A stretch of 64,000 nt of DNA from assembly GCF_016097555.1 (NCBI RefSeq), contig NC_054711.1, positions 29,364,769 to 29,428,768 of the forward strand, in the 5' to 3' direction. Position numbers and translations under genes: made by a program. Shown here in pieces: positions 21,501 through 39,500 of the stretch. Source of the stretch: Gigantopelta aegis (lineage: Eukaryota; Mollusca; Gastropoda; Neomphalida; Peltospiridae). Under the pieces are notes generated by a model that saw nothing but the letters and a program-made list of their open reading frames with translations, had not been told where the DNA came from and ran no database searches. Position 1 is the stretch's first letter; the number at the start of each line of letters is the position of its first letter.

Positions 21501-24500
21501 TGTATGTACTAGTATATGAAACAGTACATGATTAATAAAGGACAACAGTAACATTATTTTAACATTTGGTGACAGGCTACTGTTTAGAGGAGATTCACTG
21601 CATCATGTAAACTTGTACATACTAGTATATGTAACGGTACATGGTTAATAAAGGACAACAGTAACATTATTTTAACATTTGGTGACAGGCATATTTTCAT
21701 TTATGACAGGTGATTTCGACAAGCACTGCCAAACAATTATTCCCAAGCTTTCAGCTGGAAGTGAAAGTTGAAAACCAGTGACGTGTTCTGAAGGGAATAG
21801 TTCTCGAGAACAATTTAACTGGCTTTCATTGAATCCTAAACAAAAACACTAAATTTTTTAGGACTTTTTGTTTCACACTAAAACTATCTCGACTGTAAAA
21901 AATTCTACAATTTGTTGTAGTCACCTATGTCACGAAATTACATGCAATCTTAAGTGAAGAGTAATAAGCGAATTGGTTTAAAAATAAAAAGCCAAGGGCT
22001 TTAACTTTTTCTTCTGCATTAACTTCCTGCCCTACATAGATGGACAAGTGGAAATATTGGCGGACAAGTAGGAGATCGAACGAGTAATATTACAAGATAT
22101 TGTTTTTAAAAGAATACATAATTCTTAACAAACAATCTAGAAGTCCTGTTATACATCAAAGTTTTAAAAAACAAGAATTACAATCGCATTTCAAAGGTTA
22201 AATATCTAAAAAAAAAAAAAAAAGAAGAAAAAAAAAGGATGAAGACAATTACTGAAAGTTTTCGCTCAGTTTTTCAAAATCTTTTACACATGTACATTAA
22301 GCAAACATTTTTCTTTAAGTAGCAGACCCTAGTCAGTGTTTCTACCAGAAATAAATGTTTGGGTATAGTGCTATGGAGTTGAATACAACCACAGTCAACA
22401 GGAGGTGGGGTGGGGGGGGGGGGGGGTGGAGGGTTCCCAAGAAAGAAAATGGGTTAATTTTATGGCCAGGGTTAAGAAAATCATACAGTAATGATAAGAG
22501 TAATTAATTTAGTAAAAAGGTTAACTTAAACAAAACAAATCTGCAAAAGGTTTTGGGTTTGGCACCATACCTGTTTTACCCTCTGGCAGAAACACTGCTA
22601 GTTTCAACACGTAAAAATTGACAGTCAGTTAAGCTAATCTATAAACCTGTAACTCATTTATACAAGAGAAAAGTTAGTTTAGTGCGAAACCAGAGAGTGA
22701 TGTTGAAACTGGGAAATACTCTCTAAAAACAGACTAGAGCTCGTCTCCGTAATTGTTACTTCTCGGAGTCAAAGATACTTGTGTTTTAAAAAATATTACA
22801 AATGCTTTTTGCGGTAATAGTAGTAATGGTAACACCAGAATGAACTATAACATTTCGGATATATGAAAATGGATAATCTGAACATTAATGTCTGATTTTA
22901 ATTATTAAAAATAACTAACAGTGTACAATATGCCATACGTAGTGTTTAAAAACCGGAGTCTTGTCACTTTAACGGGACTCTGATAATTAAATATTTGCGT
23001 AAAACCATTTGTGGGTGACGCAGAAACAAATTCAGATAACCCATTTTCTTTTTGCATAACCCGTTATGGCCATGTAAATAATGTGCTTAATTTAGTCATA
23101 ATGCGCAAACAGCAAATAGGTTATGCTAAATTAGATTTGTGTGAACGACGCGCAAACGTTTCAAAAGCCTGCTTTGATATGAAATCAGTTTTCATTAAAT
23201 AATATGAGATTTTATTGAAACTACAGGTACAGATAAATTTCAGAACAAAAGAAAATTATACTGAGAAGAGGATTTGCCTTTGATGGTATTTAACTATTTT
23301 GCATACACCTCTGGCAATTTTCAGAGGCATGCTCTAATACAAAATCATTGTTATAATTTTTTAATGTATTTTGTTGTAGATGCTGACAGTGATCCTTCCA
23401 ACAACCCGCTTGCGAAGCCTCTGTTTTCTGCACGGTCGGAAAGTGAAATTCAAAAGAGTAAGTGGTTCATGTGTGGCAGTTTGAAAATATATCGTTGGTC
23501 TAATTCCATGTGGGGGCGGGACGTAGCCCAGTGGTACAGCGCTCGCTCGATGCACGGCCGGTGTGAGATCGATCCTCCTCGGTGGCCCGATTGGGCTATT
23601 TCTCGTTCCAGCCAGTGCACCATGACTGGTATATGAAAGGCTGTGGTATGTACTACTCTGTCTGTGGGATGGTGCATATAAAAGATCCCTTGCTGCTAAT
23701 CAAAAAGAGTAGCCCATGAAGTGGCGACAGCAGGTTTCCTCTCTCAATATCTGTGTGGTCCTTAACCATATGTCTGACACCATATGACTGTAAATAAAAA
23801 TGTGTTGAATGTGTCCTTAAATAGCAAATTAAATTTCAACCGTAGCGACATACCAAAACATTTCTTTCTGGCAGAAACACTGATGGATTATCTGCCTGAT
23901 TATCATAATATTAAGAATATTAATATTTAATTTTTGATAGTAATATCAGGTGTTGAAATTTAATTTGTTTCAATAAACACTATTCCCTCTTAAAATGTAC
24001 TATCCCTTCAATTATTAATGTACCACTAGTTTTCCTGACTCTGCTACGTCGCCCTGTACAACATTGTGTAACGAACAGTTGTTTATATACCAGTCTATGC
24101 ATTACTGCGTTCTAGCTGGAATTACAAACAAACTCACTTCAAACATTAGTCTCGATCAAAAAGACATTTATTTTGTACTGGTAAGTGCATGAGAAAGGTC
24201 TTAGTAGCGCGAGGATTTGTTCTGCGGAATAGTCACAGACGATTTTTTCGGTATTCCGTGCTTTATTTTCACTTTCATGACAGAATATTGGAAGAATTGT
24301 TTTACTATTCCGTTTCGAAATTTACTATTTGTGGAATAGCGTAAAATTCGACCCCTGAATATAAAAAAAAAAGTAAAAAAGGGACAGGTAGTTTACATGA
24401 CCCAGTAATGATGTAGGGTTTTTTTCTTTTCTAAACTGACTAATAACAATTTCAAGTAACCTGAAATTACTAAAAACAGTATTTCTATAACATTAAATAT

Positions 24501-36500: not shown

Positions 36501-39500
36501 CGTAAAGTAAAGTGCACAGATGGAAAGAACATTTAATTATATTTTCATATAATATAGAAACACCTGACTAAAACAAAACAAAGAATACTAGAGATGTATG
36601 CAAACTACCATTCGGTCAAAGGCAAATCCTCTTTTCAATATAAATTTTTCCCCCCCTTTTCCTGAAATTTATATGTACCTGTAGTTTCAATGAAATCTCA
36701 TAATTCAGGTGTAATATTTAATGTTATAGAAATACTGTTTTTAGTAATTTCAGGTTACTTGAAATTGTTATTAGTCAGTTTAGAAAAGAAAAAAACCCTA
36801 CATCATTACTGGGTCATGTAAACTACCTGTCCCTTTTTTACTTTTTTTTTATATTCAGGGGTCGAATTTTACGCTATTCCGCAAATAGTAAATTTCGAAA
36901 CGGAATAGTAAAACAATTCTTCCAATATTCTGTCATGAAAGTGAAAATAAAGCACGGAATACCGAAAAAATCGTCTGTGACTATTCCGCAGAACAAATCC
37001 TCGCGCTACTAAGACCTTTCTCATGCACTTACCAGTACAAAATAAATGTCTTTTTGATCGAGACTAATGTTTGAAGTGAGTTTGTTTGTAATTCCAGCTA
37101 GAACGCAGTAATGCATAGACTGGTATATAAACAATTGTTCGTTACACAATGTTGTACAGGGCGACGTAGCAGAGTCAGGAAAACTAGTGGTACATTAATA
37201 ATTGAAGGAATAGTACATTTTAAGAGGGAATAGTGTTTATTGAAACAAATTAAATTTCAACACCTGATATTACTATCAAAAATTAAATATTAATATTCTT
37301 AATATTATGATAATCAGGCAGATAATCCATCAGTGTTTCTGCCAGAAAGAAATTTTTTGGTATGTCGCTACGGTTGAAATTTAATTTGCTATTTAAGGAC
37401 ACACTCAACACATTTTTATTTACAGTCATATGGTGTCAGACATATGGTTAAGGACCACACAGATATTGAGAGAGGAAACCTGCTGTCGCCACTTCATGGG
37501 CTACTCTTTTTGATTAGCAGCAAGGGATCTTTTATATGCACCATCCCACAGACAGAGTAGTACATACCACAGCCTTTGATATACCAGTCGTGGTGCACTG
37601 GCTAGAACAAGAAACAGCCCAATGGGTCCACCGACTGGGATCGATCCCAGGCTGACCGCGCATCGAGCGAGCGCTGTACCACTGGGCTATGTCCTGCCCC
37701 TCGTACCGAGCAAATCTCAAAATACCAAAATTTTGGTATTGAAAAGTGTTTCCTGCCATTTAGTAAATCACTAACAATGAATCTGACAAAACACAAAATG
37801 GCTGGAAAGAAGAGCGGATGGACATCGTTCTTCCTCCGAATCGACAGAAAACCAGGTGTATGTACTTTGTGACAACAGAAAGTATGAAATTAGGGGGTGA
37901 GCCGTAACTCGGTCATGCATTTAAAGCTGAGTACCGGCGTCGTGGTTGGTCCATCGGTCTACAGGCTGGTAGGTACTGGGTTCGGATCCCAGTCGAGGCA
38001 TGTGATTTTTAATCCAGATACCGACTCCCAGACCCTCAGTGAGTACTCCGCAAGGCTCAATGGGTAGGTGTAAACCACTTGCACCGACCAGTGATCCATA
38101 ACTGGTTCAACAAAGGCCATGGTTTGTGCTATCCTGCCTGTGGGAAGCGCAAATAAAAGATCCCTTGCTGCTAATCGGAAGGAGTAGCCCATGTAGTGGC
38201 GACAGCGTTTTTCCTCTCAAAATCTGTGTGGTCCTTAACCATATGTCAGATGCCATATAACCGTAAATAAAATGTGTTGAGTGGTGCGTCGTTAAATAAA
38301 ACATTTCTTTCTTTCTTTTTTTTAAAGTTTTTTGCTCTATATATGTATTGGTAATGTGTCAATACTGAATACCGTACCAATACTGAGGTAAATCACTCCA
38401 AAAATATTGACACCAATACCGAACCTGAAAACTCAGTACCGCCCAGCTCTAGTTAGTCTCCTACCGGTGCAACCTGTGTGGGGACTTGGGGGATAACCCT
38501 ACTGTGTTTTCCTATTTGCGGACGTATATCGGTGGTTTTACTGTCGCATATTTAGTTTTATTTTATTAATAAAATTTTATTACTTTTTCTGAAATAAACT
38601 ATAAGAGACTTCCCTAAGATATAGTGTCATTACAGTGACGTCACTCAGGAATGTAGACCAATTTACATACCAACAAATGATTCTTACGCTCAACAAATAA
38701 GTACGCCGTTTTGTAATAATTTATTTCAAATTTCTTCTCAATGTGGTGTACAGTAAATTGTATTCTCGAGTAACTATTAACTGATAAAAAAATAACAACA
38801 GTAAAATAGAGCAATTGTAAATAATAAACGACCTTGATATTAACAAAGCAGTGGTTTTTAAACTACGGTGAGTATGTTAAGATTTACTGTTGTTGGAAAT
38901 TTGTGCCATAATTGTACATGTGGATTGTTTAATTGTCGATTTCAAATTGTTTTTGGTAAATGACTCATTTTTTGTACATCTGAATCATTAAAAAAAACAA
39001 AAACATTTTCATTCCTTCCTCTCTCCCCCCCCCCCCCCCCCCCGAGGCAAAATGTGCATGTTATGAGTTTGTTTTCACGGGGGGTTTGGGGGAATTGGTG
39101 CTAACGTTTCGTCAACATTAATGCCGTGAATAATTGAGATATATTTTCTTTTTGGGGGGCTTTCTGAGGAGTCTGCATTGTAACTCCTAACAATCGCTTC
39201 ACTGCCACCGGAATGTTCATAATTTTCCGAGTTTCTACCCCAGCATCTGCCAAACGGGTTATAGTTGTGGCCCTAAGACAGTGGCGTCTGCGTGTATGAA
39301 TATATGTGATGTAGGTAACACCTGGACATTTGCGACTGGTATATCGGTGGTTGTAATTTTATTAGAGATCCCAATCAGATTGGTTCTTACAAATATGTTG
39401 AATTAGAATGTGTGTTTCATCTCCATCCTTCTGTCTGTCTGTCCCACATATAGTTTTCCAAACGGGGTTTTTCACGATGCCTCAAGATGTTTAACTGAAA

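Follow-up and report, generated by a model that had tools for sequence, protein, structure and literature searches.

A near-identical 1.2-kb inverted repeat around cyclin-Y exons 3-7 in Gigantopelta aegis, probably a recent templated insertion into a SINE

Introduction

Repair of a broken chromosome can combine homologous invasion by one end with end joining of the second, a hybrid route already described in a study of templated insertions (PMC11724301). At the RNA level, inverted repeats in the introns on either side of an exon have been studied mainly for back-splicing: at HIPK3, about 100 nt of complementarity can be enough, displacement of the upstream Alu by 500 nt ablates back-splicing and the downstream Alu tolerates 1,500 nt (work cited in PMC12093144), and flanking inverted Alus are characterized in the same source as modest predictors only. 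Intronic inverted matches may also favour exon skipping, as reported in PMC8330042. With regard to RNA editing, a survey of 22 species, including Aplysia and Crassostrea, reports that editing occurs mostly in repeats in almost all metazoans, with two Drosophila species and Ciona savignyi as the exceptions; repeats hold on average 83% of the editing sites (87% in the sea hare), and less diverged, that is young, repeats are more editable (PMC9989829). Short interspersed nuclear elements (SINEs) of gastropods are the subject of two papers listed among the references of PMC11203168 (Matetovici 2016; Luchetti 2016). A circular RNA (circRNA) of human CCNY, the cyclin-Y gene, is named in the literature, mostly in reviews on human cancer, and a search of the mollusc literature for circRNA and inverted repeats returned no gastropod study among the matches listed. 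Here we analyse 64,000 nucleotides of the deep-sea vent gastropod Gigantopelta aegis (contig NC_054711.1, positions 29,364,769 to 29,428,768 of the forward strand; hereafter the window), in which introns 2 and 7 of the cyclin-Y gene carry long inverted copies of each other, and we ask how this arrangement arose and what it could mean for the transcript.

Results

Extent and identity of the inverted repeat

Aligned end to end, arm 1 (23513-24716, plus strand, intron 2) and arm 2 (36505-37700, minus strand, intron 7) are identical at 1,169 of 1,196 aligned bases, with 27 mismatches and 8 gap positions, 7 of which fall in a poly-G run. An original prediction, made from the letters of the sequence, had placed nearly identical inverted repeats on both sides of coding exons 3-7; realignment of the arms shows that the repeat is real, flanks these exons and was located correctly to within two bases, and it cannot be due to chance. 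The arms comprise three component inverted matches (23513-24382/36831-37700, 24364-24564/36650-36850 and 24565-24716/36505-36656). Within the gene, 35 inverted pairs were recovered at E 1e-3, some of them palindromes, and 23 of these flank at least one exon; the arm pair is by far the strongest, scoring 2,012 bits against 315 for the next. Two further features had escaped the prediction, namely that arm 1 begins only 55 nt 3' of the exon 2 donor and that a second, partial inverted copy of its SINE part lies at 36303-36501 (92.5% identity).

Mismatches between the arms are strongly skewed towards the outer end: 17 of them fall within 122 positions there, against 10 across the remaining 1,074 (Fisher p 1.7e-11). 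Because the state at position 123 is common to the copy and to the tail of the SINE that holds it (SINE_B, see below), the split becomes 18/123 against 9/1,073. Three of the nine mismatches in the 1,073-base copied tract sit at a homopolymer edge, and 6/1,070 are left when that edge is set aside. This low divergence (9/1,073) seems to indicate a recent copy, for which we claim no date.

A mosaic of two SINEs and a copied tract

The arms turned out to consist of two different SINEs with a copied tract in common, a composition absent from the original prediction (Table 1). In intron 2, similarity to other SINE copies in the window stops at arm position 311 (BLAST), which separates a SINE with a putative tRNA-type head (SINE_A) from about 0.9 kb of further intron-2 DNA (X). 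The SINE part has 22 other matches elsewhere in the window. X, beyond the pair itself, has only two short and diverged matches (22333-22383 and 23203-23312), and a third full copy of X is absent from the 64 kb. On the minus strand, arm 2 and its continuation read SINE_B head, remainder of SINE_A together with X, a single T and SINE_B tail. SINE_B as a whole is bracketed by a 13-bp target-site duplication, identical at 13 of 13 positions; a search for one around SINE_A, or around arm 1 in its entirety, found none (27 flank bases compared with 23780-24900, allowing 0-1 mismatch).

The two ends of the tract differ in kind. From SINE position 110 onwards, the copied body shows 3 differences from SINE_A (at 111, 123 and 297) and 12 from the SINE_B tail; the arm 2 body shows SINE_B states at 111 and 123 but, from 145, the SINE_A state. 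This junction lies within homologous sequence, and the opposite junction joins non-homologous sequences. In SINE_B, 14-35 nt of which are duplicated, the two junctions are no more than 35 nt apart, a proximity that fits the two ends of one break. Once the insert is removed, SINE_B is a complete SINE, with 274 identical positions, 40 mismatches and 2 gap positions relative to the copy at 54179. The donor is retained, and the copied tract has a homologous junction on one side and a non-homologous junction on the other, both at a single site, as is characteristic of templated insertions.

SINE_B seems to be older than the copy event, because, measured against the majority of four relatives, its head shows a similar number of differences to the heads of those relatives (12 of 109 positions, compared with 11 of 109 for SINE_A and 10, 12 and 17 of 109 for three copies outside the pair). 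ARAGORN detected tRNA-like heads at 32942-33014, 46224-46296 and 48582-48653 and none on the arms; all three adjoin SINE copies of a second type, which have the body in common with SINE_A and SINE_B and a different head, and heads seem to have been exchanged between the types. The arms also contain what we take to be A and B box-like sequence. Rfam gave no match in the window at gathering thresholds, and a search of viral contigs with exact patterns of the SINE core and of X gave 0 matches each, with records of the host's own genome possibly excluded from it.

Table 1. Coordinates of the inverted repeat, its components and the cyclin-Y coding exons in the window
Feature	Position	Strand	Basis
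SINE_A, putatively tRNA-headed, intron 2, outer part of arm 1	23513-23823	+	BLAST similarity to other SINE copies, alignment
X, ~0.9 kb of intron-2 DNA, inner part of arm 1	23824-24716	+	Arm alignment, BLAST
SINE_B target-site duplication (13 bp), 5' copy	37702-37714	-	Junction sequences
SINE_B head, SINE positions 1-123	37578-37700	-	18/123 positions differ from SINE_A
Copied SINE_A body inside SINE_B	37390-37577	-	B-to-A switch between SINE positions 124 and 144
Copied X in intron 7	36505-37389	-	Arm alignment
Single base T at the non-homologous joint, attributed to neither side	36504-36504	-	Junction sequences
SINE_B tail, restarting at SINE position 110	36293-36503	-	Junction sequences, SINE alignment
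SINE_B target-site duplication (13 bp), 3' copy	36280-36292	-	Junction sequences
Intron 1 end plus exon 2 start, probable origin of an old tandem duplication	23159-23409	+	Alignment
Probable old degenerate copy of 23159-23409, spanning the X end	24450-24759	+	Alignment, BLAST, window control
Cyclin-Y coding exon 1	18348-18519	+	Spliced model, protein match
Cyclin-Y coding exon 2	23380-23457	+	Spliced model, protein match
Cyclin-Y coding exon 3, first of the would-be circle	25603-25661	+	Spliced model, protein match
Cyclin-Y coding exon 4	27934-28143	+	Spliced model, protein match
Cyclin-Y coding exon 5	31087-31206	+	Spliced model, protein match
Cyclin-Y coding exon 6	33523-33689	+	Spliced model, protein match
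Cyclin-Y coding exon 7, last of the would-be circle	35666-35828	+	Spliced model, protein match
Cyclin-Y coding exon 8, with stop	40606-40725	+	Spliced model, protein match

Direction of copying

The stretch 24450-24759, which covers the end of X and the adjoining 3' flank, aligns with a score of 137 to 23159-23409, where intron 1 ends and exon 2 starts, around a core at 23203-23312 (E 1.4e-16). The alignment extends past the core, through the acceptor and into exon 2, and 1 in 1,000 shuffles was as good. Intron 2 is favoured as the donor because of this resemblance, which is suggestive, not proof, that X is native to intron 2 and that arm 2 is the copy.

Viewed separately, 24450-24759 may be what is left of a tandem copy of the exon 2 acceptor and the first bases of exon 2; the exon portion carries a 3-nt gap.

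The predicted RNA duplex

The geometry proposed for the transcript by the original prediction was right: pairing over some 1.2 kb would loop out exons 3-7. Duplexfold predicts an energy of -2,094.9 kcal/mol when only the two arms are paired and of -1,502.3 kcal/mol for X alone. The arms are long, complementary and located within one gene, as is typical of loci that form double-stranded RNA (dsRNA), and they occupy the introns on both sides of exons 3-7, as do pairs that flank circRNAs. Each arm is about four times as long as an Alu. Their exon-proximal edges lie 886 nt 5' of exon 3 and 676 nt 3' of exon 7. SINE pairs inside intron 7 (for example, 36291-36500/38101-38310) would compete for pairing; X has just one strong partner.

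Adenosine-to-inosine editing of the predicted duplex is likely, by analogy with other repeats, if the transcript is abundant. The pre-mRNA duplex is most likely a by-product of the insertion and an ADAR substrate, its contribution to back-splicing or to the skipping of exons 3-7 would be weak at most, and no selected function of the hairpin is indicated. Back-splicing of exons 3-7 is possible by the same kind of analogy, on mixed evidence: as little as ~100 nt of complementarity can be enough at HIPK3 and a circRNA of human CCNY has been named, whereas the upstream edge, at 886 nt, is farther off than the 500-nt displacement that ablates HIPK3 back-splicing, and the downstream edge, at 676 nt, is within the 1,500 nt tolerated there. 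The exon boundaries named for it, 25603 for the start of exon 3 and 35828 for the end of exon 7, agree with the spliced model, and the circle would indeed measure 719 nt, which is not a multiple of three (719 mod 3 = 2). Joining exon 2 to exon 8, as in skipping of exons 3-7, would shift the frame.

As a separate observation, exon 4 alone is flanked by three further inverted pairs (27571-27809/30517-30755, 89% identity; 27807-27886/28888-28967, 91%; 26893-26972/30751-30829, 95%), of which the first has its upstream arm ending 124 nt from the exon. The stretch 27571-27815 is itself palindromic (71%) and resembles a small foldback transposon. Exon 4, with 210 nt and thus a multiple of three, is a rival candidate for a single-exon circle.

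The cyclin-Y gene and other features of the window

Eight coding exons, with GT...AG at 7 of 7 introns, encode a 362-aa cyclin-Y protein that matches the cyclin-Y-like protein of Gigantopelta aegis from end to end at 100% identity; exon 6 matches a solved cyclin-Y chain. The original prediction had also raised an inversion of the DNA between the arms. The allele in this assembly is not inverted, because exons 3-7 share the strand of exons 1, 2 and 8 and together with them encode the annotated protein. A 77-bp tandem array of 6.9 copies (35119-35661) stops four bases 5' of exon 7, its last unit nearly reaching the acceptor.

Outside the gene, a 298-aa open frame at 1104-2000 with a DDE_1 endonuclease domain (E 9.8e-11) is presumably the remnant of a pogo/Tigger-like transposase. 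A 188-aa open frame at 6799-7365, perhaps a retrotransposon fragment, contains part of an RNase H domain (E 6.4e-06), and open frames of a short repeated peptide on both strands of 57558-58370 probably reflect a tandem repeat.

Discussion

Our preferred explanation, to which we assign a probability of roughly 0.6, is that a recent templated insertion gave rise to the inverted repeat. From the mosaic structure, the junctions and the low divergence, all directly observed, we infer an order of events, a donor and a repair route. Specifically, a break would have occurred in the older SINE_B of intron 7, and one broken end would have invaded SINE_A, a similar element lying 12 kb away in intron 2 in opposite orientation. 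Synthesis would then have copied the remainder of SINE_A together with about 0.9 kb of intron-2 DNA (1.1 kb in total), after which the new end would have been joined to the other broken end without homology, splitting SINE_B and repeating 14-35 nt of it. Known kinds of events and elements suffice to account for the repeat.

Several observations weigh against parts of this reconstruction. Regarding the age of SINE_B, the body count gives no help (24/214 for the SINE_B tail), most body copies being of the other head type, and the undecayed 13-bp duplication would also be compatible with a young SINE_B. Regarding the donor, a control on real sequence for the extension into exon 2 is weaker than the shuffles, with 8 of 1,273 windows reaching the score; two of these are the match itself and six lie at three other places, one of them scoring 44 against 38. 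In addition, the first 0.7 kb of X (to 24512) resembles intron 1 no more than chance would predict, with 398 of 500 shuffles scoring as well, which leaves the inclusion of this part in the old exon 2 duplication unsupported.

Among the alternatives, composite retroposition, the main rival but one that we regard as unlikely, would have inserted all 1.4 kb of arm 2 at once. Reverse transcriptase would have primed on SINE_B RNA at the target, jumped to an RNA of SINE_A and X (for example, cyclin-Y pre-mRNA) and then jumped back to SINE RNA. Such a course would explain why the 13-bp target-site duplication surrounds the entire composite, and the stop of X at 24716, one base before a T6 run at 24718, resembles the end of a terminated transcript. 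However, T runs of equal or greater length occur inside arm 1 (T6 at 24243 and T7 at 24419), contrary to an RNA produced by polymerase III read-through, the SINE_B head appears to match neighbouring copies in age, and the two template jumps would have to coincide by chance within 35 nt of SINE_B.

That SINE_A and X form a dispersed repeat with a third source, or that the arms were homogenised by gene conversion, appears improbable. The Gigantopelta aegis genome consists of about 64% repeats, according to PMC7736800, and two short X-like stretches lie nearby, as expected of a dispersed repeat, but the 64 kb that hold 22 other matches to the SINE part hold no third full X, and the end of X looks native to intron 2. 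Gene conversion, for its part, would have to have left the SINE heads unhomogenised.

It is very improbable that the repeat is a functional circRNA driver maintained by selection for an exon 3-7 circle. The arms do form the strongest inverted pair of the gene, with five exons between them, a circRNA of human CCNY has been named, and in five mammals young repeats are reported to dominate the predicted pairing dimers in circRNA-flanking introns (PMC8516420). Against this, youth alone accounts for the near-identity of the arms, which are 886 and 676 nt away from the splice sites and face competing SINE pairs within intron 7 (36291-36500/38101-38310), and the length of the circle, 719 nt, is not divisible by three. 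Misassembly is very unlikely as the source of the repeat, given the mosaic SINE structure, the intact target-site duplication, the distinct flanks and the differences between the arms. The contig that carries the protein measures 42 Mb, in keeping with the chromosome-level assembly that PMC7895826 describes as built from PacBio reads with short-read polishing and Hi-C, from which the window probably derives. Two simpler accounts are out: a pair of insertions of the same SINE family cannot be the whole story, since the ~0.9 kb of X is shared outside the SINE and arm 2 has a second SINE tail, and a plain X transposon cannot be the sole cause, since the copied tract starts within SINE_A.

The repeat is thus real, young and mosaic, with an unusually readable origin, and circular RNA from exons 3-7 is a hypothesis. 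As a templated insertion, the locus would represent a well-resolved case of a diverged inverted SINE pair of one gene giving rise to a long and near-perfect hairpin via break repair. Should such events be frequent, young transposons need not be the source of the strongest dsRNA and circRNA loci of repeat-rich genomes. If Gigantopelta aegis is polymorphic for the insertion, a comparison of carriers and non-carriers would offer a natural test of the effect of a 1.2-kb intronic duplex on splicing and editing. A more far-reaching proposition, which we advance tentatively and with low confidence, is that SINEs can give rise to long near-perfect hairpins in introns with no second copy being inserted, and have in this way created a new editing or circRNA locus in cyclin-Y. 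An inverted SINE pair would prime a templated insertion by which unique intron DNA is copied into the partner SINE; a ~300-bp pair of roughly 90% identity would thereby become a near-perfect duplex of 1.2 kb in a single step.

Among known systems, the locus resembles the templated insertions at double-strand breaks described in PMC11724301 in that a donor was copied and kept, the tract sits at a break site, and one junction is homologous and the other non-homologous. It differs in being found in a reference genome, in its length of about 1.1 kb, whereas the local fold-back insertions reported in that yeast study are mostly shorter than 14 bp, and in the two opposite SINEs of one gene that would have served as primers. 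The elements themselves resemble the tRNA-derived SINEs of molluscs, with a putative tRNA-type head, a common body, a target-site duplication and exchanged heads. Finally, like the inverted Alus around HIPK3 exon 2, as presented in PMC12093144, the arms are transcribed inverted repeats in both flanking introns; unlike them, they are near-perfect and would loop out five exons and about 12 kb for a circle that is hypothetical.

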